Below are positions 10,598 through 60,439 of a DNA stretch of 64,000 bases, one piece after another (the first letter of the stretch is position 1; each line of letters begins with the position of its first letter). Position numbers and translations under genes: made by a program. The notes under the pieces are model-generated. The model ran no database searches, was not told where the DNA came from, and worked only from the letters and a program-made list of their open reading frames with translations. Source of the DNA: Methanothermococcus okinawensis IH1 (lineage in GTDB: Archaea; AGJL01; Methanococci; Methanococcales; Methanococcaceae); the NCBI RefSeq assembly GCF_000179575.2, contig NC_015636.1, positions 1,403,495 through 1,467,494 on the forward strand. Reading direction: 5' to 3'.

Positions 10598-11437
10598 ATG
10601 ATAGATTCAAAAACTAAGATGTTAGGTCTTATTGGTCATCCTGTTGAGCATTCATTATCCCCTATAATGCATAATGCGGCATTAAGAGATAAAAATCTAA
10701 ATTATGTTTATCTCGCATTTGATGTTCTTCCAGAAAATTTAAAATATGTTGTTGATGGGTTAAAATCTCTTGGAACAGTGGACGGATTTAATGTAACTAT
10801 CCCTCACAAAGTAAATATAATGAAATATCTTGACGAAATAGACAGAGAGGCTGAGTTCATAGGTGCAGTAAATACTGTAAAAATAGCAAATAATAAAGCA
10901 GTAGGATATAACACCGATGGATTAGGGGCAAGGAGGTCTCTTGAAGAAGAAATTGGAAAGGTAGAAAATAAAAATATCTTAATAGTAGGGGCAGGTGGAG
11001 CTGCAAGGGCAGTAGCATTTGAATTTGCAAAAAATAACAATTTAACAATCATAAATAGAACTGTTGAAAAGGCGGAGCTCCTATCAAAAGAAATATCTGA
11101 AAAACTAAATAAACCTATATATTACAACAATTTAGATGTAGATATTGATGACTTTGATATAATTATACATACAACACCAATAGGTATGTATCCAAATATT
11201 GAAGCTAAACCTATTATAGATACAGATGGGATTAAAGATAATATGGTTGTAATGGATTTAATATATAATCCAAAAGAGACCATACTTTTAAAAGAGGCTA
11301 AAAAGCATGGGGCAAAAACAATTAACGGACTTGGGATGCTGGTATATCAAGGAGCAATAGCTTTTGAAATATGGACTGGTGTTAAGCCAGATATTGATAT
11401 TATGAAAAGGACACTTTATAATTCTTTAAAATACTAA
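10598..11437 (+). CDS. aroE: Shikimate dehydrogenase
   Basis: This 279-residue enzyme reduces 3-dehydroshikimate to shikimate with NADPH in aromatic amino acid synthesis. Signatures are LGLIGHPVEHSLSPIMHN (9-26, substrate serines), FNVTIPHK with catalytic Lys71, YNTDGLG, the NADP loop ILIVGAGGAARAVAFEF near 127-143, and INGLGMLVYQGAIAFE at the C-terminus. Length matches the family. I chose the ATG at 10598 because GGTGGT at 10585-10590 is properly spaced before it. The ATG at 10583 overlaps that site. The upstream 276 bp are A-rich and featureless. Confidence 0.95.
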   Translation: MIDSKTKMLGLIGHPVEHSLSPIMHNAALRDKNLNYVYLAFDVLPENLKYVVDGLKSLGTVDGFNVTIPHKVNIMKYLDEIDREAEFIGAVNTVKIANNKAVGYNTDGLGARRSLEEEIGKVENKNILIVGAGGAARAVAFEFAKNNNLTIINRTVEKAELLSKEISEKLNKPIYYNNLDVDIDDFDIIIHTTPIGMYPNIEAKPIIDTDGIKDNMVVMDLIYNPKETILLKEAKKHGAKTINGLGMLVYQGAIAFEIWTGVKPDIDIMKRTLYNSLKY

Positions 11438-17542: not shown

Positions 17543-17974
17543 TTAATTTAGATTGAGAAGAAGATTTATAAATTTTTTGCTTTTTTGGAGGCCTGCCATT
17601 TTTTCTTTTTCGTTCTCTTCTTCATCGCCACCCTTACTTTTATAATATCCTTTTAATGGAGGCATTTTTGGAAGGTCTTCAATAAGATAAGGATACGGTT
17701 CATGCCTTTCACTTATCACCACGATATGTGCAGGAGGGTGGATTTTTCTTATTTTATCTATTGCTCTTGGAGCGTTTTCTTCGATTTTAACCAAACATGC
17801 TTTTTTGCATGGTTTTTTAATACCTCCAAGTATGTATTTTAGGAGCTCATCCGCAGCCTCTGGAACCATGATTTTTGGCTTTCCAATTATTGTTAATTTT
17901 GCATGTCTATGTATATCTGCCAAAGCATTCTTAATCTTTTCGTAATTGTCGCCCCGTATGAGTAGTAATACCAT
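17543..17974 (-). CDS. DUF356-type methanogen protein
   Basis: This 143-residue protein begins MVLLLIRGDNYEKIKNALAD, followed by HAKLTIIGKPKIMVPEAADE. This is the pattern I recall for DUF356, a family confined mainly to methanogens, of unknown function. It has two cysteines in KKPCKKACLV and a conserved-looking RKIHPPAHIVVISERHEP. The C-terminal 35 residues are charged and look disordered (SKGGDEEENEKEKMAG). GGTGAAGAAGCT precedes the ATG. It lies just outside the left direct repeat of the restriction-modification island. Methanogen restriction suggests a link to methanogen-specific metabolism, but no role can be stated. The family name is from memory. Confidence 0.68.
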   Translation of the reverse strand: MVLLLIRGDNYEKIKNALADIHRHAKLTIIGKPKIMVPEAADELLKYILGGIKKPCKKACLVKIEENAPRAIDKIRKIHPPAHIVVISERHEPYPYLIEDLPKMPPLKGYYKSKGGDEEENEKEKMAGLQKSKKFINLLLNLN

Positions 17975-18034
17975 AGCTTCTTCACCGTGTTTCTTTTAAT
18001 TATTTAAAAAATAAATAAAAAATAAAAAATAAAA

Positions 18035-18095
18035 TAATTTAATGTAAATTATGTTTTATCTTTTTTAAATGTTTTTGATTTATAAAGTTAAATTA
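18035..18095 (+). repeat. Left direct repeat of type I RM island
   Basis: Bases 18035-18076 are identical over 42 positions to 24928-24969, in the same orientation. A further 18 or so bases align with two changes and one indel. The core runs from TAATTTAATGTAAATTATG to TTAAATGTTTTT. This copy lies 20 bp beyond the hsdR stop. The pair encloses all five genes of the restriction-modification locus and no others, which suggests insertion or excision by recombination. It may also be a dispersed intergenic repeat. Confidence 0.8.
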
Positions 18096-18114
18096 TTTAT
18101 CAAAATGTTTTGCA

Positions 18115-21100
18115 TTATGAAGTTAATGGATAATCTCGATATAATTCAATAGCCTGTTTAAAAATTATATCTGTTAATTCATCCATATTTTTCTGTTTTA
18201 ATATTTTATGTTTTATATCATATTTTCTCAATATACGTTTTATAGATGCTCTAACTCTTGCTTTTGAGCTCTCATATCTAAACCAATCTGTGGATAAATT
18301 TTTCTTTATTTTTTCGGTAATTTCCCTTACAATTTCTATAATAATTTCCATTTCATCGTCGTTTAAATTTGAATTGCTATATAAGTATATTAGAGCATCA
18401 TAAAATACCTCTTCTTCATCAGTTAAACCAAGTTTTTTAGCATTATCTGAGGAATACTTCAATTCCTCAGCGATATTCATAAGCTGCTCCATTACCTGTT
18501 CAACAGTAATTAATCTATTGTTATATTTTCTTATAGCTTCCTCTATTTTTTCTTGAAAAGATTTTCTTTTAATTCTATTTCGTTTAAGTAATACTTTTAC
18601 CTGGTCATTTAGTAGTTTTTCTAAAACCTTAACTTGAACATCCTTAACCTTAATATTATTAAGATATTTTAAAAATTTGGGGTCAAATATCGATATAGAT
18701 TTAGTATCCTTTAATCCAAAGATATTTATAACATCTTTTGCTTGGATGCTTCTATTTACGAGCTCTATAAGTGCATCTTCTAAGGAGTCCGATATTTCGT
18801 TATTTTTGGTGTAGGTATAATTTCTAAGATTTTTTGCTACCAATTGGAAAAATTCTAAATCATCCCTAATTTTCATTGCCTCAGGGTGTGGGCTCACAAG
18901 TGCATGAACCTTTGTTAATTCCGATACCAATTTTAAATAATTTCTTAAAATTCCTTTTTCTTTTTTGTCATCCTCTGTGATTTTGTAATATGCCATCTGT
19001 ATAAGTTTTGCGAGCTCCGTATTTGATAAGGATTTCCAATTGGAATAATCTATTTTATTTAGATACAGCCTTGCTATATCATACTTATCTTTCATTAGCT
19101 TTAACGCTTCGTTAAGTGGGAGCATGGTTTCTTTTACAACTTTTCCACTGTATCTATCAAGCGATTTTTTAAGGTCGTCGGTAATTCCAATATAATCGAT
19201 TATCCAGCCACCTGCTTTATTGGGATACACCCTATTTACTCTTGCAACTGCCTGTAATAGATTGTGGTTTTTCATAGGTTTATCAATATACATCCTATCC
19301 ACAACAGGCACATCAAAACCTGTGAGCCACATATCCACAACTATAACAATTTTTAAAGGGTCATTGGGATTTTTAAATCTTTCTGCGAGCTCCTCCAATT
19401 CATGCTTTGTTCGTATATGCTCCCAAAATTTCTTAGGGTCGTGGCTTTTATTTCCAGACATTACTACGGCTATTTCCGGGCAATCTTTTATTTTTTTCAT
19501 ATAGTTATACATTTCTACGGCGGCATTTCTGCTTATACATACGACCATGGCTTTTGTATTTAATTCTTTGCCGTTAAAGTGGGTAATAATATCTTTTGCT
19601 ATTTTTTCCATTCTTGATGGTGTTGTAATAAGGGTTTCAACTGCTGAAAATCTTCTTTTTATATTTTCTTCCTTTGAATTTTCCAACTCTTTTGTTATGT
19701 TTTCAAAATCCAAATCCAAATATTCATTTGAAAGATGGAGCTCTGAAAATCTTGCCTCATAGTAAATAGGAACAATAGCCCCATCCTCTGTCGCATCCTT
19801 TATAGTATATATTCCTGCGTAATCTCCAAAAGTATTTGTTGTAGATTTATCTTCAAGTTCTATTGGCGTTCCTGTGAATCCAATAAACATTGCATTTGGT
19901 AGAGCTCCTCTTATGTTCTGGGCAAGTTTTTTATATTGGCTCCTATGTGCCTCATCTGCAATCACTATAATGTTATTTCTATCTGAGATTTTAGGGAATA
20001 TATTATCTTTATTATTATTTCCTTTTTCATCCTTTGTTAGTTGGAATTTTTGAATGGTTGTAAATATTATGTCCCCCGATTTAATGTTTAACTTGTCCCT
20101 AAGGTCTTCTATTGATTCTGCCTTTTTTCCGTATGTTCCTAACTCAGTTTTTATAAAGGTTTTATAAATTTGGTCGTCTAAATCGTTTCTATCGGTTAAA
20201 ATTAATATTGTTGGATTATTTAGTTCTGGAAGTTTTATAATTTTTCTCGTGTAAAATAACATGGATAAAGATTTACCGCTTCCCTGTGTGTGCCAAAATG
20301 TTCCGATTCTCTTATCTTTTGAGTTTATGGCTTTCAGGGTTCTATTTACTGCTTTTCTAACATCGTAAAACTGGTGATACATAGCTATTTTTTTAATAAT
20401 TTGTTTTTTGTCGATTTCATATACTATAAAATCCTGAATATATTCTAAAAGCCTTTTTCTATTGAATAATCCTTTAATTAAAACCTCTAATGAAGGGGTT
20501 GTTTTTTCCTCGTAGTCGTATTTATCGTTAATCCCCCTCCATTTTGAAAATCTTTCGTAATTTGCTGTGATACTTCCTATTTTAGTTTTCAATAGGTTGC
20601 TTATTACTAATATTTCGTTGTAGTAGAATATTTGGGGTGCGAGCTCCTTATAATTTTGAATTTGTTTATATGCACTTTTTATGGATGAGTTGGCTGGATT
20701 TTTAAATTCAAATAATGCTATCGGTAATCCATTAATAAATAGGATTAAATCAAATCTTACTCCATCCTTATTTTCTTCCTTTACCACAAATTGATTTGAT
20801 ATTAAAAAAGAGTTATTATTTATATTGTTAAAATCTATTAATTTTACTATATCAGCTTTTATATTGCCTTCTTTGTCCCTATATTCTATGGGTATTCCGT
20901 TTATAAGTAATCTATGAAAATTATAGTTTGCCTCTTCTATGCTTATGTTTGATAATGATATTATTCGTTTATATACTTCTTTTAGTGCGGCATCTGGAAT
21001 AGTTGGATTTAATGTTCTTATGGCTTTTAGAAATCTTTCTTTTAAAATCACATCTGCGAAGGTTTCCCTTTCTCCTTTTTCTGGGGTGAGCTCCTTTCCA

Positions 21101-21183
21101 TGTATATATTGGTATCCCTCCCCATCACTTAACCAATTTATAGCGGGCTGTTCTACTATCTTATCTTCGCTGGTATTTCCCAT
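18115..21183 (-). CDS. hsdR: Type I restriction enzyme, R (motor/nuclease) subunit
   Basis: This 1022-residue protein has the N-terminal nuclease motif RFDLILFINGLPIALFEFK (Asp145 and the E-x-K at 159-161). Helicase motifs are Walker A TQGSGKS (299-305), IVIADEAHRSQYKK, IGFTGTPIELED, and the late motif QAVARVNR. A helical C-terminal region would contact the modification enzyme. It translocates DNA with ATP and cuts at a distance when target sites are unmethylated, in complex with HsdM and HsdS. It appears intact. AGGTGATAGA precedes the ATG. A palindrome TCGGAGCTCCGA sits 25 bp upstream, and mntA-hepT separates this gene from hsdS. It is the last gene of the five-gene minus-strand run. Confidence 0.95.
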   Translation of the reverse strand: MGNTSEDKIVEQPAINWLSDGEGYQYIHGKELTPEKGERETFADVILKERFLKAIRTLNPTIPDAALKEVYKRIISLSNISIEEANYNFHRLLINGIPIEYRDKEGNIKADIVKLIDFNNINNNSFLISNQFVVKEENKDGVRFDLILFINGLPIALFEFKNPANSSIKSAYKQIQNYKELAPQIFYYNEILVISNLLKTKIGSITANYERFSKWRGINDKYDYEEKTTPSLEVLIKGLFNRKRLLEYIQDFIVYEIDKKQIIKKIAMYHQFYDVRKAVNRTLKAINSKDKRIGTFWHTQGSGKSLSMLFYTRKIIKLPELNNPTILILTDRNDLDDQIYKTFIKTELGTYGKKAESIEDLRDKLNIKSGDIIFTTIQKFQLTKDEKGNNNKDNIFPKISDRNNIIVIADEAHRSQYKKLAQNIRGALPNAMFIGFTGTPIELEDKSTTNTFGDYAGIYTIKDATEDGAIVPIYYEARFSELHLSNEYLDLDFENITKELENSKEENIKRRFSAVETLITTPSRMEKIAKDIITHFNGKELNTKAMVVCISRNAAVEMYNYMKKIKDCPEIAVVMSGNKSHDPKKFWEHIRTKHELEELAERFKNPNDPLKIVIVVDMWLTGFDVPVVDRMYIDKPMKNHNLLQAVARVNRVYPNKAGGWIIDYIGITDDLKKSLDRYSGKVVKETMLPLNEALKLMKDKYDIARLYLNKIDYSNWKSLSNTELAKLIQMAYYKITEDDKKEKGILRNYLKLVSELTKVHALVSPHPEAMKIRDDLEFFQLVAKNLRNYTYTKNNEISDSLEDALIELVNRSIQAKDVINIFGLKDTKSISIFDPKFLKYLNNIKVKDVQVKVLEKLLNDQVKVLLKRNRIKRKSFQEKIEEAIRKYNNRLITVEQVMEQLMNIAEELKYSSDNAKKLGLTDEEEVFYDALIYLYSNSNLNDDEMEIIIEIVREITEKIKKNLSTDWFRYESSKARVRASIKRILRKYDIKHKILKQKNMDELTDIIFKQAIELYRDYPLTS

Positions 21184-21207
21184 TCTATCACCTAATATAT
21201 ATTCCCC

Positions 21208-21219
21208 TCGGAGCTCCGA
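21208..21219. repeat. 12-bp palindrome TCGGAGCTCCGA, copy 1
   Basis: A perfect 12-bp palindrome in the short gap between hepT and hsdR, 25 bp before the hsdR start. An identical copy lies at 21867-21878 before mntA. The core is GAGCTC, the over-represented hexamer of this window. It could be an operator, since it is symmetric and upstream of a start, or a mark of insertion of the mntA-hepT pair. Confidence 0.6.
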
Positions 21220-21231
21220 CTTATATATTAT

Positions 21232-21591
21232 TCACTCTTTTAAAATTTTTTCAATGATGGGTTTTAGTTTTGGAATTTTATTTATTACTACATCATAAAC
21301 TAAATAATAATCTACCCCGAAGTATTTATGAATTAAAACATCCCTCATGCCTGCGATATTTCGCCATTGTATTTCTGGATGAGAATCTCTTATTTCATTT
21401 GGTATGTTTTTAACAGCTTCACCAATTATTTCCAAACTTCGAACAAATGCTCGTTTTAATGTTTCGTCTTCTATAAATGTATTATAATCTAAGTTATGTG
21501 ATGTGTTTAGCAAATATTCACACTCATCGAGTATATGTAGTAAGTATTTTCTTTTATCCTTCAATATACTCAACCTCTGATAGTATCTCAT
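21232..21591 (-). CDS. hepT: HepT-like HEPN ribonuclease toxin
   Basis: This protein of up to 119 residues is of the DUF86/HEPN family. It is all helical, with [17 protein letters not shown] at the N-terminus and the catalytic R-x4-H motif in [15 protein letters not shown]. HepT is the RNase toxin paired with the nucleotidyltransferase antitoxin MntA, which inactivates it by adding AMP to the Tyr near the R-x4-H motif. A tyrosine is present at that place (HKY). It overlaps mntA by 38 bp if it starts at the ATG 21591. A TTG at 21564 behind GAGGTTGAG would give an 11-bp overlap and a start closer to the family's. The position inside a restriction operon suggests a defence or stabilising role. 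Confidence 0.87.
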
Positions 21592-21856
21592 TTCTTAAAT
21601 GCTTAGAAATGCTTTCTTTGGTTAATAAATCAACATCTGTTTTAAAAATATCTTTTAAATAATAGTAAAGATTCATAAAATTATCAAAATTTTTGTATCC
21701 TTCTTCAAACTCAACTAATATGTCTATATCTGATGTTTCCTTTTGTTCCCCTCTTGCATAACTTCCAAATATTCCGATAGTTTTAACCTTATATTTTTCT
21801 CTTAGTTCCTTTTTATGTTCTAAGATAATCTTTTTAATTTCGTTTAAGGTTTTCAT
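21554..21856 (-). CDS. mntA: MntA-like nucleotidyltransferase antitoxin
   Basis: This 100-residue minimal nucleotidyltransferase has the motif [20 protein letters not shown], the GSxxR-x9-DxDxL core of MNT proteins, with catalytic aspartates in SDIDILVEF. MntA adds AMP groups from ATP to a HepT tyrosine and so blocks the toxin. I chose the ATG at 21856 because AAGGTGATTAT precedes it and [11 protein letters not shown] is the normal family start. Upstream in-frame codons lack support. It is translationally coupled to hepT downstream. The gene lies between hsdS and hsdR in the same orientation. A 12-bp palindrome is centred 16 bp before the start codon. Confidence 0.88.
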
Positions 21857-21866
21857 ATAATCACCT

Positions 21867-21878
21867 TCGGAGCTCCGA
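21867..21878. repeat. 12-bp palindrome TCGGAGCTCCGA, copy 2
   Basis: Identical to the sequence at 21208-21219. The two copies enclose the mntA-hepT pair exactly. This one lies directly before the mntA ribosome binding site. I saw no third copy of the full 12-mer in the window, while its GAGCTC core is common. Confidence 0.6.
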
Positions 21879-21960
21879 TAAGTTCCGTAAATTAAAAGAT
21901 AAATCAAACATTTTTTTATAAATAAATATAAAGTTTATATTTTAAAATTAATTGGATATA

Positions 21961-23226
21961 TTATGGTTTTACTCTAATTTTCCCTGTGATAAGTTTAGGT
22001 AGTAGTGTATCTCTTATTTTAGTTAAGGTTTGGATTTCTTTTTGATTATTTAAAATTTGGTTAAATATGGGTTTTGTTAAATCTCCAAATAATTTTAAAA
22101 TTCTTTTCATCTCATCTATTTTTTTAGGTAATGTTATTTTCATGTGTTCTACTGATTTTCCAGCATGTAATATAGTTGTCCCACTAGCATAATTCTTTAT
22201 AGTGTTTTGAATATTATCACTTTTTAAAAGACAGTATATATACATATTTGGAATATCGTATTCTGATATTGGACATACTTTACGTATTCCTGATGAATAA
22301 GCACCATTATATCCAAATTTTACAACACCCAAACTTCCATCTAATGATATTATAATATCCTCAGAATTCAAAATTTTATTTTTTGCCATTTCTTTTGGAA
22401 TATATACCTTTTCAGAATTAGAATTTAAATCTCTAATTCGAATAAATCTAATATGGTTTTCTTTTTTTATAAGTGTATAATATTTAGAACCTGGTTCAAT
22501 CCCCCTTATAAAGTTCAATATATTTTTTATAGGTTTGATACTCCAACCCTTCGGTATCTCTCCGAGCTCGCTATTTATAAACTCTCCACCAGAACTTTTA
22601 TATGGTTTTCCTTCTTCGTTTGGAAATTCAAAATCTATAAACCATCTTTTAAAAATTGTTTTTGCCATTTCTTCTAATGTTTTATTCATTTTAATGTTTA
22701 ATTCAATTTTATCATCTAAACTTGATAATATTTCGGCTATTTTTTGCTGTTCTTTAAGTGGTGGAAGTAGGATTTCTAAATTTTTTATAGTGGTTCCAGA
22801 TATTTCCTTAAAAGTGGAACCTCCAGCCAAACTTTCTAATACTTTTTTCTTAGTTTTTAACCAATAATAAAGAAATTCATAGTTTAATTTATCTTCATTA
22901 GTTATAAAACTTCTAAATCCTTGATTAGTTGTAAGTTCATTTTTAGCAATAGCCACATAACCAATTGGTGCTCGGGATGATAATAAAATGGTTCCAGGAG
23001 GTAGTAATTTTGCAGAAGAATTTTTAAGCCCTTCTCGACTTATGTTTCTTTCTCCCTTACATATATATTTAAAAATATAATTAGATAAATCCTTGGGAGT
23101 AATCCATGGTATATCACCGTTCCAATATTCAGATTTTTTAGTGGAAGGAGTCCCACCCCCTATAACATTTGCAACTTCTCCCAATTTTCGAACTTCCCAA
23201 CCATCAGGTAAATATAAATCGTCCAT
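21961..23226 (-). CDS. hsdS: Type I restriction-modification specificity subunit
   Basis: This 421-residue protein has two target recognition domains. The first starts LPDGWEVRKLGEVANVIGGG, and the second starts LGEIPKGWSIKPIKNILNFI near residue 220. Each is followed by a helical spacer: LPPLKEQQKIAEILSSLDDK centrally and a weaker copy at the C-terminus (IQTLTKIRDTLLPKLITGKI). HsdS reads a bipartite DNA target and docks two HsdM copies. The target sequence cannot be read from the protein. It is intact, with no phase-variable repeat tract and no extra silent hsdS nearby. It starts 41 bp after hsdM. Confidence 0.94.
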   Translation of the reverse strand: MDDLYLPDGWEVRKLGEVANVIGGGTPSTKKSEYWNGDIPWITPKDLSNYIFKYICKGERNISREGLKNSSAKLLPPGTILLSSRAPIGYVAIAKNELTTNQGFRSFITNEDKLNYEFLYYWLKTKKKVLESLAGGSTFKEISGTTIKNLEILLPPLKEQQKIAEILSSLDDKIELNIKMNKTLEEMAKTIFKRWFIDFEFPNEEGKPYKSSGGEFINSELGEIPKGWSIKPIKNILNFIRGIEPGSKYYTLIKKENHIRFIRIRDLNSNSEKVYIPKEMAKNKILNSEDIIISLDGSLGVVKFGYNGAYSSGIRKVCPISEYDIPNMYIYCLLKSDNIQNTIKNYASGTTILHAGKSVEHMKITLPKKIDEMKRILKLFGDLTKPIFNQILNNQKEIQTLTKIRDTLLPKLITGKIRVKP

Positions 23227-23267
23227 AATATCACAACATATAAATTTATTAATAATAAAAATTAAAA

Positions 23268-24887
23268 TTATGCCTTAAATCCCAATTCACTTAAATTATT
23301 CTTTATTCTTTCTTCTAATTCTCTCGATTTTTTAAAGTGTTCTGATAATTCCTTAGTCAATCTTTCCATTTTATCTTCAAAAGGTTCTGAGTCTTCTTCA
23401 ACATCTGCAATTCCAACATAACGCCCAGGAGTTAAAATATAATCTTGTTCTCTTATTTCATCTATCGTAGCAACTTTACAGAATCCCTTTTCATCCTTAT
23501 AATCTGGATAGCCATCCTCTCCCCTATAACATCTATAAACATCAGCTATTTTTTTAATCTGTTCATCTGAAAATTCGTTCTGATTTCTTGCTACGGGGGT
23601 GTAAATTTCCCTTGCATCTATAAATAGAGTTTCCCATTTCCTACTTCTAAACCTTCCATTCTCTTTGTTTTTGTCTATTACCCATATACAAGCGGGAATT
23701 TGCGTAGTATAAAACATCTTATTAGGTAGTGATATTATACAATCTACAATACCTTCTTCTATTATCTTTTTTCTTATCTCCCCTTCTTTACCACCAGCAG
23801 ATAGGGAACCATTAGCCATAATAAAAGCAGCTATGCCATTATCCGATAAATGATAAATAAAATGCTGTATCCATAAAAAGTTTGCATTCCCACTTTTTGC
23901 ATTTTCTGCCTTTTTTGGAACAATTCCATAGGGAAACCTTACATCTCCTTCCAAAACCTTTTGGTCATAATCCTTGTAGTTAAACGGCGGATTTGTAATA
24001 ATATAATCTGCTTTTAAATCCCTATGTTTATCATTTGATAGCGTGTCTCCCTGTTTTATCTGGTCATGGGATAATCTATGTATCGCAAGGTTCATTTTAC
24101 ATATTCTAACATTTGAGGAATTCAACTCCTGACCATATATTGCTAAATCTATACCATTTCCATTTTTTAAATACTCCTTTACAAACTTAGAGCTCTGAAC
24201 AAACATTCCACCACTACCACATGCAGGGTCGTATATTCTACCTCTTAACGGCTCCACCAACTCAACAAGCAGTTTTACAATACATTCAGGAGTAAAGAAC
24301 TCACCCCCTTTCTGCCCCAATTTCTGGGAAAAGTTCCTCATAAAATACCCATAAATTGTTCCGAATACATCCCCTATACTTTCATCCTTGTTTTCTATAA
24401 ATTCCTTATAATTAATATTATTAAATAAATCAAGTAATGCCCCTAATTTCTCATGTGGAATTTCTGCCCTTACATATTCCTTAGGTAATACTCCCTTTAA
24501 TTTACTGTTATGTTTTTCAAGCAAAATCATTGCATCATCCAATAACTTGGCAATATTTGGATTTTTCGCATTTTTTATTAAATAATCCCACCTTGATTGT
24601 TCAGGAACATAAAAAACATTTTCAGAAATATATTCCTCATTATCTTCTAAAAGTCCTATGAGCTCATCTTCTGTTTCACAATAATAATCACTTTTGGGAT
24701 TTTTAGATAAATCAATTAATTCTCTTCTTCTTTCTTCAAACATATCAGAAGCATATTTTAAGAATATAATGCCCAATACTATATCTTTATATCTTGAAGG
24801 GTCAACACTACCCCTTAGTTTTTCAGCACTACCCCATAATGTTTTTTCAAGTTTTTTTAACATTTCCTGTTTCTTCTTTAACTTCAT
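23268..24887 (-). CDS. hsdM: Type I restriction-modification N6-adenine methyltransferase subunit
   Basis: This 539-residue protein has the AdoMet-binding motif YDPACGSGGMFVQ at about 217 and the adenine methylase catalytic motif NPPF at about 297. LRGSVDPSRYKDIVLGIIFL is the usual N-terminal HsdM helical domain, and GGEFFTPECIVKLLVELV precedes motif I. It methylates adenine on both halves of the HsdS target and so protects host DNA. The ATG follows AAAGGGATAAT. It is the first gene of the minus-strand operon hsdM-hsdS-mntA-hepT-hsdR. The right direct repeat (24928-24987) sits 40 bp upstream, so it overlaps the probable promoter. Confidence 0.96.
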   Translation of the reverse strand: MKLKKKQEMLKKLEKTLWGSAEKLRGSVDPSRYKDIVLGIIFLKYASDMFEERRRELIDLSKNPKSDYYCETEDELIGLLEDNEEYISENVFYVPEQSRWDYLIKNAKNPNIAKLLDDAMILLEKHNSKLKGVLPKEYVRAEIPHEKLGALLDLFNNINYKEFIENKDESIGDVFGTIYGYFMRNFSQKLGQKGGEFFTPECIVKLLVELVEPLRGRIYDPACGSGGMFVQSSKFVKEYLKNGNGIDLAIYGQELNSSNVRICKMNLAIHRLSHDQIKQGDTLSNDKHRDLKADYIITNPPFNYKDYDQKVLEGDVRFPYGIVPKKAENAKSGNANFLWIQHFIYHLSDNGIAAFIMANGSLSAGGKEGEIRKKIIEEGIVDCIISLPNKMFYTTQIPACIWVIDKNKENGRFRSRKWETLFIDAREIYTPVARNQNEFSDEQIKKIADVYRCYRGEDGYPDYKDEKGFCKVATIDEIREQDYILTPGRYVGIADVEEDSEPFEDKMERLTKELSEHFKKSRELEERIKNNLSELGFKA

Positions 24888-24927
24888 ATTATCCCTTTTT
24901 TAAATAATAGCAGATATTAAAATAAAG

Positions 24928-24987
24928 TAATTTAATGTAAATTATGTTTTATCTTTTTTAAATGTTTTTTATTTTAAAGTTAAATAA
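24928..24987 (+). repeat. Right direct repeat of type I RM island
   Basis: Partner of the repeat at 18035-18095, with a 42-bp identical core at 24928-24969. It lies directly upstream of hsdM and may supply its promoter. Recombination between the two copies would remove about 6.9 kb, leaving the DUF356 gene next to the HARP gene. Confidence 0.8.
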
Positions 24988-25057: not shown

Positions 25058-25753
25058 TTAAATCTTCTTTCCATAGACATTTAAATATTCTTTAAGTATA
25101 AATGGAAAATCCCTTGCCTTAACAAATCTCAATCCAAGGCGTTGAGCCCATTTTTCAATACCTTCATCACTTGCCACCACTGCGGCGTCGAGCTCCTTTG
25201 CAAGTAATAGCACATCTAAATCTGGGGCACTATCAAGAGTTCCAGTTCTCAAAGCACTTCTATATTTATTCCTAAATGAATTTACAGTTTTTGATAAAAC
25301 ATCATCTATTAATAATTTTTTATCTTTCTTATCTTTTTCATCCTTTAACTTGTCATCCTGTGAAAGCACATAAGCTTCTGATGCTGTTTCATACATTGCA
25401 TTTTCACTTATTCTCATGCCTTTGTTTATTCTTTCCCTTAAATCCTTTATATATTCATAAAGTATCTCTGCTGGGAGTTTTATTTCATACCTATTTGGTG
25501 TTTTCTTTACAAGCCAAGTATCTACTTTAATTAAAATTTCTTCTGGACACCCCTCCCTTTTCAAAAATCCTGCGAGCTCATCATATACACTTGGATACGG
25601 AATATGGCATGAAATATCCAAATGAACCCTTGATTCTGATATTAAATCAAGTATCATCTCAGCAGATTCAGAAATCGTATTTGCCCCAAGCGATTTTCTA
25701 ACCTCACTATCTGTAATTGCCGTAGTATCCAAACAAAATCTTTGTTTTTGCAA
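25058..25753 (-). CDS. HARP: protein-only RNase P (PIN domain, UPF0278/RNA ligase partner family)
   Basis: This 231-residue protein is of the family formerly called RNA ligase partner or UPF0278, later shown to include the protein-only RNase P of Aquifex (HARP). PIN-like acidic residues are visible: Asp9 in RFCLDTTAI, Asp174, Asp178 and Asp180 in GTLDSAPDLDVLLLAKELDA, and Asp196 in VVASDEG. The helical protrusion used for oligomerisation corresponds to about 85-165. It carries a lysine/aspartate-rich loop (KLKDEKDKKDKKLL). Expected activity is 5' maturation of tRNA precursors. Archaea with HARP usually keep the RNA-based RNase P too. The start is TTG at 25753, well spaced from GGTGAT. It follows the TmcAL-like gene by 33 bp. 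Confidence 0.87.
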   Translation of the reverse strand: MQKQRFCLDTTAITDSEVRKSLGANTISESAEMILDLISESRVHLDISCHIPYPSVYDELAGFLKREGCPEEILIKVDTWLVKKTPNRYEIKLPAEILYEYIKDLRERINKGMRISENAMYETASEAYVLSQDDKLKDEKDKKDKKLLIDDVLSKTVNSFRNKYRSALRTGTLDSAPDLDVLLLAKELDAAVVASDEGIEKWAQRLGLRFVKARDFPFILKEYLNVYGKKI

Positions 25754-56812: not shown

Positions 56813-58858
56813 TTAATATCTGTAATTTCTGAAATCATTAACCAATGTTCCATCGGGAGACAGGTTTTTAGGAACCTGTTTTCCCATTTTTTTCAACTTA
56901 TATCTCTCACACATTTCGTAATTACCTTTACAATATTTATCTTTTAACTTTTCGGCTACTTCTGGATTGAGTTCAGGGTCATGCACAAATGGACATTTTG
57001 GAAGGTTTACACATTCAGTATCTGATACTCTAAATTTATCTACCTTTTGAGAGACTATATTGGCAATATTAACAGCCTCTTTAATAGCTCTAGCAGTCTC
57101 TTCAACAACTGCTTCTTGTTCTTCGGCACTTGCTGTTAATTCCTCAGCAGTAGCAGCAAACTCTTCGGATATTGAAGCTATATCTTGAACATTTTTCAAC
57201 GCATTCTGAATATTATCAGTAGAATCCTGAGCCTGTTTTTTAATTGCATTTATTCTTTCCAAAGTTTTATCTATTCCATCCTTAATTTTAAGAAATGCAC
57301 CATTCACTTCATCTATTGCAACAACGCCTTTATCTACTTCGTCCTTACCAGTTAGACCTAAGTCAATAGTTTTTTCAATCCTGTTGTGGATACTTGAAAT
57401 AGTTTTATTTATGTCATCAACGGATTTTCCAATCTCTTCTGCAAGTGATTTAATTTCACTTGCAACTACTGCAAATCCTTTTCCAGCTTCACCCGCTCGT
57501 GCAGCTTCTATGGATGCATTTAATGCCAATAAACCAGTTTGTTCTGCAATATCTTTAATCAATACTGTAACTTCGTTGATTTTCTTGCTCTCATCCCCTA
57601 ACTCTTGAATAGTTCTTCCTAAATCATCTATCACGTTGGCTATATTTTGCATGGTATCTATTGCGTTTTCTACCTTCTTAACACCTGTTTCTGAGTAACC
57701 TTCCACCTCCCTTGCAGTTTCTACTCCTTCTTCAGCCTTTTCAGTGGTTAATTTTACAAGTTCAGCAGTTCCGCCTAAATCTTGTGATAGGTCCTGTAAT
57801 TTTGTAGATTGGTCAGTTGCTGCTGTGGCAACCTGTGATGCTGCATCAGCCACCTGGTCAGAGATTTCCTTTACCCTTTCAGATTCTTCCTGCATAGTGT
57901 TTATCTCTTGGTTTAGTTGGGATATTTGGTTTTTCAGGTCATTTGTCATGTTTGCTATATTGTCCAATGCTTTATTGATAACTTTTTCAACTTCTTTATC
58001 TTTTCCACTATCATCTAATCTAACGGTGAGTTCACCCTCAGCTACCTTATTCATTGTATTATGTATCTCGATAAACATGCTTTCCAATTTTTTGCGCTCT
58101 TGCTCCTGTCTTTTTGTATCTTCCCGCAAATTATTATGTAGTTTCTTGATATTGAGATATATATTTCCAATTTCATCCTCATTGAATTTTACATTTTCTT
58201 TTATATCATAATGTCCATTGGCTAATTCACTAGTAATTCTTTCGAGGTCTTTTAAAGGATTCAACACTGTTTTTCGTATAATAATTATGGAGAGTATGCC
58301 TGTAAATAGGGCAAATACAACAGATGCTATTGCCACATCATTTGCAAATTTAAGTTTTTCATCGTATAATTTATTATATAATGTAACTGCTTTGTTCATT
58401 TCAGATAACAGTTCCATATTATGTTCTTTTAGATACAACAACGCTTCTTTAAATTCAGGGTCATTTGGATTTTTTGAACATATTATTTTTATTTTTTCAT
58501 AGAATGGATTCCATATCTCTTTTACTTTAAGAAGTTGAGCTTTAACATCATTGGAAGCTGGTGGAATTCCTAATTTTTTATCACCATATATTAAAGCATT
58601 TAATGTTTTGTCAAATAAGTCTGATGTTTCTTTCAAATCTTTTTTATCCTCAACATGACCTGCACTTATCATAAATGCCTCTTTGGTCATTTTTTGACTC
58701 AGCATTCTCTGTTTTCCAGCAAGATTAATTATATTTCCATCATGCTGCATACTACTATGCACAATCATGGTCGTGAAAGATACTATTGCAACAATTAGTA
58801 TTAATATCGCTAAAATTGATAAAATCTTGGTTTTAACAGATATTTTGTTCAATTTCAT
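56813..58858 (-). CDS. Methyl-accepting chemotaxis protein with PilJ-type sensor and Cys-rich tail (MCP1)
   Basis: This 681-residue receptor has a first membrane helix at about 10-31. An extracellular domain has the PilJ/type IV pili-type signature [21 protein letters not shown] second helix at about 170-190 precedes HAMP, a second HAMP-like stretch and a long signalling coiled coil with the hairpin tip [22 protein letters not shown]-terminal extension carries cysteines in [28 protein letters not shown] and VNLP. The ATG at 58858 follows GGGGATATT. The signalling half is DNA-identical to that of MCP2, a sign of gene conversion. The ligand is unknown. Confidence 0.93.
57061..57973 (-). repeat. 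Near-identical MCP repeat, copy in MCP1
   Basis: Aligns without gaps, at an offset of 2025 bp, with 59086-59998. Positions 57097-57973 (877 bp) show no difference by eye. It codes for the MCP signalling hairpin. Identity stops sharply at both ends. At the 5' coding end the proteins diverge at [16 protein letters not shown] against [16 protein letters not shown]. Confidence 0.85.
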
Positions 58859-59047: not shown

Positions 59048-60439
59048 TTAAGCTTTAAATTTATCAACAGATAGTGCTAACTTATTGGCAATATTAACAG
59101 CCTCTTTAATAGCCCTGCCGCTCTCTTCAACAACTGCTTCTTGTTCTTCGGCACTTGCTGTTAATTCCTCAGCAGTAGCAGCAAACTCTTCGGATATTGA
59201 AGCTATATCTTGAACATTTTTCAACGCATTCTGAATATTATCAGTAGAATCCTGAGCCTGTTTTTTAATTGCATTTATTCTTTCCAAAGTTTTATCTATT
59301 CCATCCTTAATTTTAAGAAATGCACCATTCACTTCATCTATTGCAACAACGCCTTTATCTACTTCGTCCTTACCAGTTAGACCTAAGTCAATAGTTTTTT
59401 CAATCCTGTTGTGGATACTTGAAATAGTTTTATTTATGTCATCAACGGATTTTCCAATCTCTTCTGCAAGTGATTTAATTTCACTTGCAACTACTGCAAA
59501 TCCTTTTCCAGCTTCACCCGCTCGTGCAGCTTCTATGGATGCATTTAATGCCAATAAACCAGTTTGTTCTGCAATATCTTTAATCAATACTGTAACTTCG
59601 TTGATTTTCTTGCTCTCATCCCCTAACTCTTGAATAGTTCTTCCTAAATCATCTATCACGTTGGCTATATTTTGCATGGTATCTATTGCGTTTTCTACCT
59701 TCTTAACACCTGTTTCTGAGTAACCTTCCACCTCCCTTGCAGTTTCTACTCCTTCTTCAGCCTTTTCAGTGGTTAATTTTACAAGTTCAGCAGTTCCGCC
59801 TAAATCTTGTGATAGGTCCTGTAATTTTGTAGATTGGTCAGTTGCTGCTGTGGCAACCTGTGATGCTGCATCAGCCACCTGGTCAGAGATTTCCTTTACC
59901 CTTTCAGATTCTTCCTGCATAGTGTTTATCTCTTGGTTTAGTTGGGATATTTGGTTTTTCAGGTCATTTGTCATGTTTGCTATATTGTCCAATGCTTTGT
60001 TAAACGCCTTTTGAAGCCTGTTATGTTTCCCAGATTCATCTAGTCTAATAGTTAAATCTCCATTTTCAAGTTTAATCATGGCATTTGTAATTTCTTCAAA
60101 AGTTCTTCTAGTTCCTTTTTTATATTCCTCACATGAATTAAGTTTTTTGATTACTTCGCCAAGTTCTTTTATTATTTCATCGAATACCTCAGAATTATTT
60201 TTCATTTTCGTAAAGTCTTTATTCAATAATTTACCCATATCTCCAATAAAAACACACATGGTTTTTGAATCCTTTTTTAAAATGTTATATCCTATTGCAT
60301 ATGAAATTACTATGGATATAATCAAAGCACCGAATAGATATATAATCATCTTTTCTATAATATCAGGACACAACATACAAAGGGTCAAAAATAAAATTAT
60401 TGCTGGCGTCGAAGATAGTAACATCAATTTTTTATCCAT
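59048..60439 (-). CDS. Methyl-accepting chemotaxis protein without extracellular sensor (MCP2)
   Basis: This 463-residue receptor starts [20 protein letters not shown] and has two membrane helices close together, with a loop of only about a dozen residues (CPDIIEKMI). It therefore lacks an extracellular ligand domain. A short cytoplasmic linker precedes a HAMP-like segment and a signalling region identical to that of MCP1. Its C-terminus ends soon after the coiled coil ([10 protein letters not shown]), without a cysteine-rich tail. It may sense an intracellular or membrane state. The ATG at 60439, behind AAAGGTGAAACA, is preferred to one at 60496 that would overlap cheD by 47 bp. The start lies 10 bp after the cheD stop. 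Confidence 0.92.
59086..59998 (-). repeat. Near-identical MCP repeat, copy in MCP2
   Basis: Partner of 57061-57973. The 877-bp core is 59122-59998. Outside the core only short matches remain (for example TTAACAGCCTCTTTAATAG near the 3' coding end). Confidence 0.85.

Follow-up and report, generated by a model that had tools for sequence, protein, structure and literature searches.

The type I restriction-modification (RM) operon hsdM-hsdS-mntA-hepT-hsdR of Methanothermococcus okinawensis IH1 lies between two direct repeats within a 64,000-nucleotide stretch of the genome (contig NC_015636.1, positions 1,403,495 to 1,467,494; G000:C2:1403495-1467494 in our numbering), hereafter the window. What are these repeats? 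In our judgment they are probably duplicated target DNA left by horizontal insertion of the RM operon, not the ends of a mobile element. The operon, with mntA-hepT inside it, would have been transferred horizontally between members of the Methanococcaceae as little more than its coding sequence and entered the intergenic region between the genes for HARP and DUF356. About 68 bp of the target, the region upstream of DUF356 and probably its promoter, would have been duplicated by break repair without a recombinase, leaving one copy on each side. The native copy would stay with DUF356 and the second would go to hsdM, so that the start signals of both genes would be kept. This type of event has been known for restriction systems since 2000, and it appears here in unusually clear form.

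The genes for HARP and DUF356 are direct neighbors, 26-186 bp apart, in three genera of the same family (g2, g3, and g4) and in a sister family (f2). Because the two genes adjoin in other Methanococcales genera, the block that separates them here is an insertion. In G010, a genome of the same genus, a single mntA-hepT pair stands between them.

The initial annotation of the window reported a 42-bp sequence recurring exactly, with weaker identity to about 60 bp, and this description is borne out. The two 42-mers are identical, and no such pair arose by chance in 100 dinucleotide-preserving shuffles. A search of the complete genome (G000; 1,677,455 bases in two contigs) allowing up to three mismatches found these two copies and no others, while the reversed control gave none. 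At the two ends of the insert the repeat extends without gaps over 56 bp at 96% identity (18026-18081 versus 24919-24974) and, allowing one 1-bp gap, over approximately 68 bp; weaker similarity continues to approximately 100 bp, with an alignment score of 62 against a shuffle maximum of 36. The copies, designated L (next to DUF356) and R (next to hsdM), differ by approximately three changes in 68 bp, and the insertion event is therefore not fresh. The 42-bp core has no match among viral contigs. A 24-bp match to the core between hepT and DUF356 in G010 was considered as a further copy and rejected, as shuffled controls score higher.

Which copy is the original? In the closest relative, G003 (88% DNA identity over DUF356-ileS), the repeat is present once, immediately upstream of DUF356, and this operon is missing; the best HsdM match there is only 37% identical. 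Copy L aligns with G003 through the leader to the DUF356 start codon (score 74 versus a shuffle maximum of 28), whereas copy R departs from this alignment into the hsdM leader. This difference makes L most simply the native copy and R the duplicate. From its position and its conservation with G003, the duplicated block is probably the promoter region of DUF356. The initial annotation had proposed looking for one copy of the repeat between DUF356 and HARP in strains lacking the island; G003 supplies the single DUF356-linked copy without the island, but its neighbor is sppA rather than HARP. None of the relatives was found to carry the repeat pair without the island.

The borders of the transferred unit can be placed with the help of G012, a genome of another genus that carries the same operon at a different site. 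The hsdM and hsdR genes are 92-94% identical to their G012 counterparts in DNA, while the HARP/DUF356/ileS neighborhoods of the two genomes share only 74% identity, which points to transfer between the two lineages, or from a common donor, after their separation. This agrees with the earlier view of an acquired type I island shared with a close relative. HsdM and HsdR are 94-95% identical between the two systems and HsdS only 40%. A search of genome contigs with HsdR returned as its only relative one in Clostridium at 38% identity. In G012, the operon lies between aroC and YlqF, which adjoin without it in G013, and no significant direct repeat was found at its ends. Homology between the two operons begins 7 bp ahead of the hsdM start codon and continues until 11 bp past the hsdR stop, and both repeats fall outside this shared range. 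Because the homology stops short of the repeats, the shared unit amounts to an almost bare operon that does not have the repeats as its ends. The earlier view of the island as framed by these repeats is thus supported only in part: they do not look like a component of it, the G012 copy lacks them, and one of the two is most simply the native DUF356 upstream region, which is single in G003.

A duplicated target is not the only route to this arrangement. A single homologous crossover could have integrated a circle, or the DNA of a strain, that already carried the operon fused to an upstream region of the DUF356 type, with the repeat as the footprint of recombination. The end product would be the same, and 40 bp of homology is enough for transformation in Pyrococcus furiosus COM1 (PMC5099854). 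However, the sole known second copy of the operon, that in G012, lacks such a sequence, so that a joined donor must be assumed, and we regard this route as unlikely. By the same P. furiosus figure, homologous excision is conceivable, and clean loss of the island between the repeat copies is possible by analogy.

Could the repeats instead be att-like ends, at which a trans-acting recombinase or host proteins excise the island as a circle able to insert again? That an exact 42-bp core, unique in the genome, frames exactly the island would fit such a scheme. Against it, no recombinase is seen in the island, the repeats lie outside the unit held in common with G012, which has none, and the copies have already begun to diverge, all of which make it improbable. 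The remaining proposal, that the repeat is a regulatory element held before both units by selection, or a dispersed type of promoter, and that insertion is irrelevant to it, seems more doubtful still. Both copies do share one orientation and precede start codons by approximately 30-50 bp, and the core is conserved with G003; yet the genome has only these two, and they mark precisely the two ends of the insert. An integrase/att genomic island and a composite transposon were both rejected, as no integrase or other recombinase and no insertion sequence was seen among the open reading frames listed for the interval and the repeats lie outside the shared unit.

Several points nonetheless weigh against insertion with target duplication. 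G003 is not a strict empty site, since sppA stands upstream of DUF356 there and HARP is elsewhere, and its single copy could be all that remains of an island since lost. In the remaining syntenic genomes, divergence is too great for the repeat sequence to be visible. Motif discovery in 42 upstream regions returned only the A+T-rich background and no promoter motif.

How does the event compare with those already described? Insertion of RM units with long target duplications is attributed to Nobusato et al. 2000 and Furuta et al. 2010 in the passages of PMC3874152, PMC3031569, and PMC1643837 that cite them, where duplications on the order of 100 bp are reported. As described there, such units share with the present locus a site that is empty in relatives, a long direct repeat, here probably of target DNA, and the absence of a transposase or integrase. 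The M. okinawensis locus differs from the cases in those passages in that the duplicated block is the region upstream of the downstream gene and in that the evidence comes from other genera rather than from two strains of one species. Among archaeal type I systems, it gives a clear case of an RM unit apparently moving without a recombinase and duplicating its target; the second copy of the operon, at a different site in another genus, allows both ends to be located. Should the duplicated block be a promoter, its duplication would explain both the harmless landing before a conserved gene and the immediate expression of a bare operon.

In the direction of transcription the locus reads HARP (PIN_5), repeat R, hsdM, hsdS, mntA, hepT, hsdR, repeat L, DUF356, and ileS, with all genes on the minus strand (Table 1). 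The open reading frame listing and Pfam confirm that the repeats enclose hsdM, hsdS, mntA, hepT, and hsdR and nothing else, each with a strong Pfam match. No integrase- or transposase-like frame occurs among the open reading frames listed, with Pfam run on the five island genes and three neighbors only; to that extent the initial statement on this point holds. The three type I subunits HsdM, HsdS, and HsdR, with their domains, are encoded within one operon, for which DNA methylation and restriction are predicted from the genes. MntA and HepT have the MNT and HEPN domains in the two-gene order with their catalytic motifs and are predicted to be an RNase toxin neutralized by nucleotidylation. 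The mntA reading frame is listed with an upstream TTG start at 21907, but translation probably begins at the ATG of MKTLNEIKK, a start conserved across eight cassettes.

Table 1. Features of the RM island and its flanks (window coordinates).
Feature	Position	Strand	Basis
DUF356 gene, downstream neighbor; region upstream of gene is the probable duplicated target	17543..17974	-	Pfam PF04009; HARP-DUF356-ileS order conserved in relatives
Repeat copy L, probable native region upstream of DUF356	18026..18093 (exact core 18035-18076)	-	sequence comparison; orthologous single copy in G003
hsdR, restriction subunit	18115..21183	-	Pfam HSDR_N, SWI2_SNF2, T1RH-like_C; PADLOC REase_I 1.2e-254
TCGGAGCTCCGA palindrome, hepT/hsdR border	21208..21219	.	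same position in G012, G003, and second G000 cassettes
hepT, predicted HEPN ribonuclease toxin	21232..21591	-	Pfam PF01934 1.1e-27; RX4HXY in translation
mntA, predicted minimal nucleotidyltransferase antitoxin	21554..21859	-	Pfam PF01909; GSX10DXD in translation
TCGGAGCTCCGA palindrome, just upstream of mntA	21867..21878	.	sequence comparison
hsdS, specificity subunit, two target recognition domains	21961..23226	-	Pfam PF01420, two stretches
hsdM, methyltransferase subunit	23268..24887	-	Pfam N6_Mtase 1.6e-103, HsdM_N
Probable transferred unit, outer limits of DNA common with G012 operon	18104..24894	-	blastn limits, junction sequences
Repeat copy R, probable duplicate of DUF356 upstream region, 32 bp before hsdM start	24919..24985 (exact core 24928-24969)	-	
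HARP (PIN_5 ribonuclease), upstream neighbor	25058..25753	-	Pfam PF08745 3.3e-86

Why is a toxin-antitoxin pair placed inside an RM operon? By analogy with PrrC-PrrI (PMC3710099), MntA-HepT is predicted to serve as a fallback if the RM complex is blocked or fails. The likeness to the PrrC-PrrI type (PMC3710099, PMC3506569) lies in a HEPN RNase gene within an hsdMSR operon and in the predicted second line of defense; here, however, the HEPN gene belongs to a separate two-gene cassette with an MNT antitoxin. With MntA-HepT modules elsewhere (PMC2701414, PMC4621449) the pair shares the MNT-then-HEPN order, the GSX10DXD and RX4HXY motifs, and recent gains and losses between relatives. Unlike those modules, the two HepT-like genes of M. 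okinawensis each occupy the hsdS-hsdR gap of a type I operon, of which the genome has two, and conserved DNA ends are common to the cassettes. A survey of HepT loci in 36 Methanococcales genomes placed 12 of 46 no more than 2 kb from an hsdS, where 0.18 would be expected from coverage; the formal probability of this excess comes out too small because the loci share descent.

Eight cassettes from four genomes were compared. Counting from the mntA start, the initial 150 bp or so are 86-88% identical on average, most blocks of the middle fall to 58-65%, and the end returns to 76-77%. The hsd systems that bear them are partly unrelated (HsdM of contig G003:C63 is 32-37% identical). Conserved ends with divergent middles, in partly unrelated hsd systems, suggest that cassettes are swapped by recombination at these ends. 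We tentatively extend this to a broader proposal, which we consider possible though short of probable: the hsdS-hsdR gap in Methanococcales would be a plug-in slot in which homologous recombination exchanges, stacks, or removes cassettes, even across unrelated type I systems, and from which a cassette may remain alone at a former island site, as in G010, so that the toxin would diversify alongside, but independently of, DNA specificity. The near-identical ends in question would be TCGGAGCTCCGA with approximately the first 170 bp of mntA, and the hepT tail. That HEPN toxins associate with RM loci and that toxins are replaced is already known (PMC3710099, PMC3506569), as is the mobility of MNT-HEPN pairs (PMC2701414); a description of the cassette structure in the hsdS-hsdR gap was not found in the open-access literature. 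Such a slot would allow testing whether RM and toxin-antitoxin pairs evolve as one defense unit.

Cassettes also occur in irregular forms. G012 has two tandem mntA-hepT cassettes, the first with a broken hepT. In G003:C63 (L106:1-1640), two tandem mntA-hepT cassettes follow an apparent hsdS tail, with no matching hsdM or hsdR, and this tandem pair adjoins an unrelated type I operon that carries its own cassette. The lone pair at the HARP-DUF356 site of G010 (L046:5155-6209) has an interrupted hepT frame and is 95.7% identical to the second G012 cassette; either it is what is left of an RM island or it inserted here independently. A hairpin insert of approximately 44 nucleotides breaks the frame of two different hepT alleles in the same codon region (L097 ~10870-10930 in G012 and L106 ~1380-1425 in G003) and resembles a small insertion element that favors a particular target. 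Another hairpin, at the mntA2/hepT2 border, is common to G012 and G010.

The 12-bp palindrome TCGGAGCTCCGA is present in 28 copies in G000, 17 in G010, 15 in G012, 8 in G003, and 2 in G016, with none for the reversed control, and is absent from the other 30 Methanococcales searched. Specificity for toxin-antitoxin cassettes was rejected, as only 11 of the 70 copies examined are near mntA or hepT. Several copies in G012 and G016 cap a short double-hairpin repeat. GAGCTC is in general excess in the window (64 versus 35 expected from pentamer counts); the initial estimate of about 13 copies inside the island proves exact.

Two further repeats occur in the window. A 300-bp direct repeat with 94% identity (57028-57327 and 59053-59352) lies in two adjacent genes for methyl-accepting chemotaxis proteins whose signaling domains are nearly identical, through either recent duplication or gene conversion. 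A 102-bp tandem repeat (1825-2334) is located within a TPR-type open reading frame (1777-2388).
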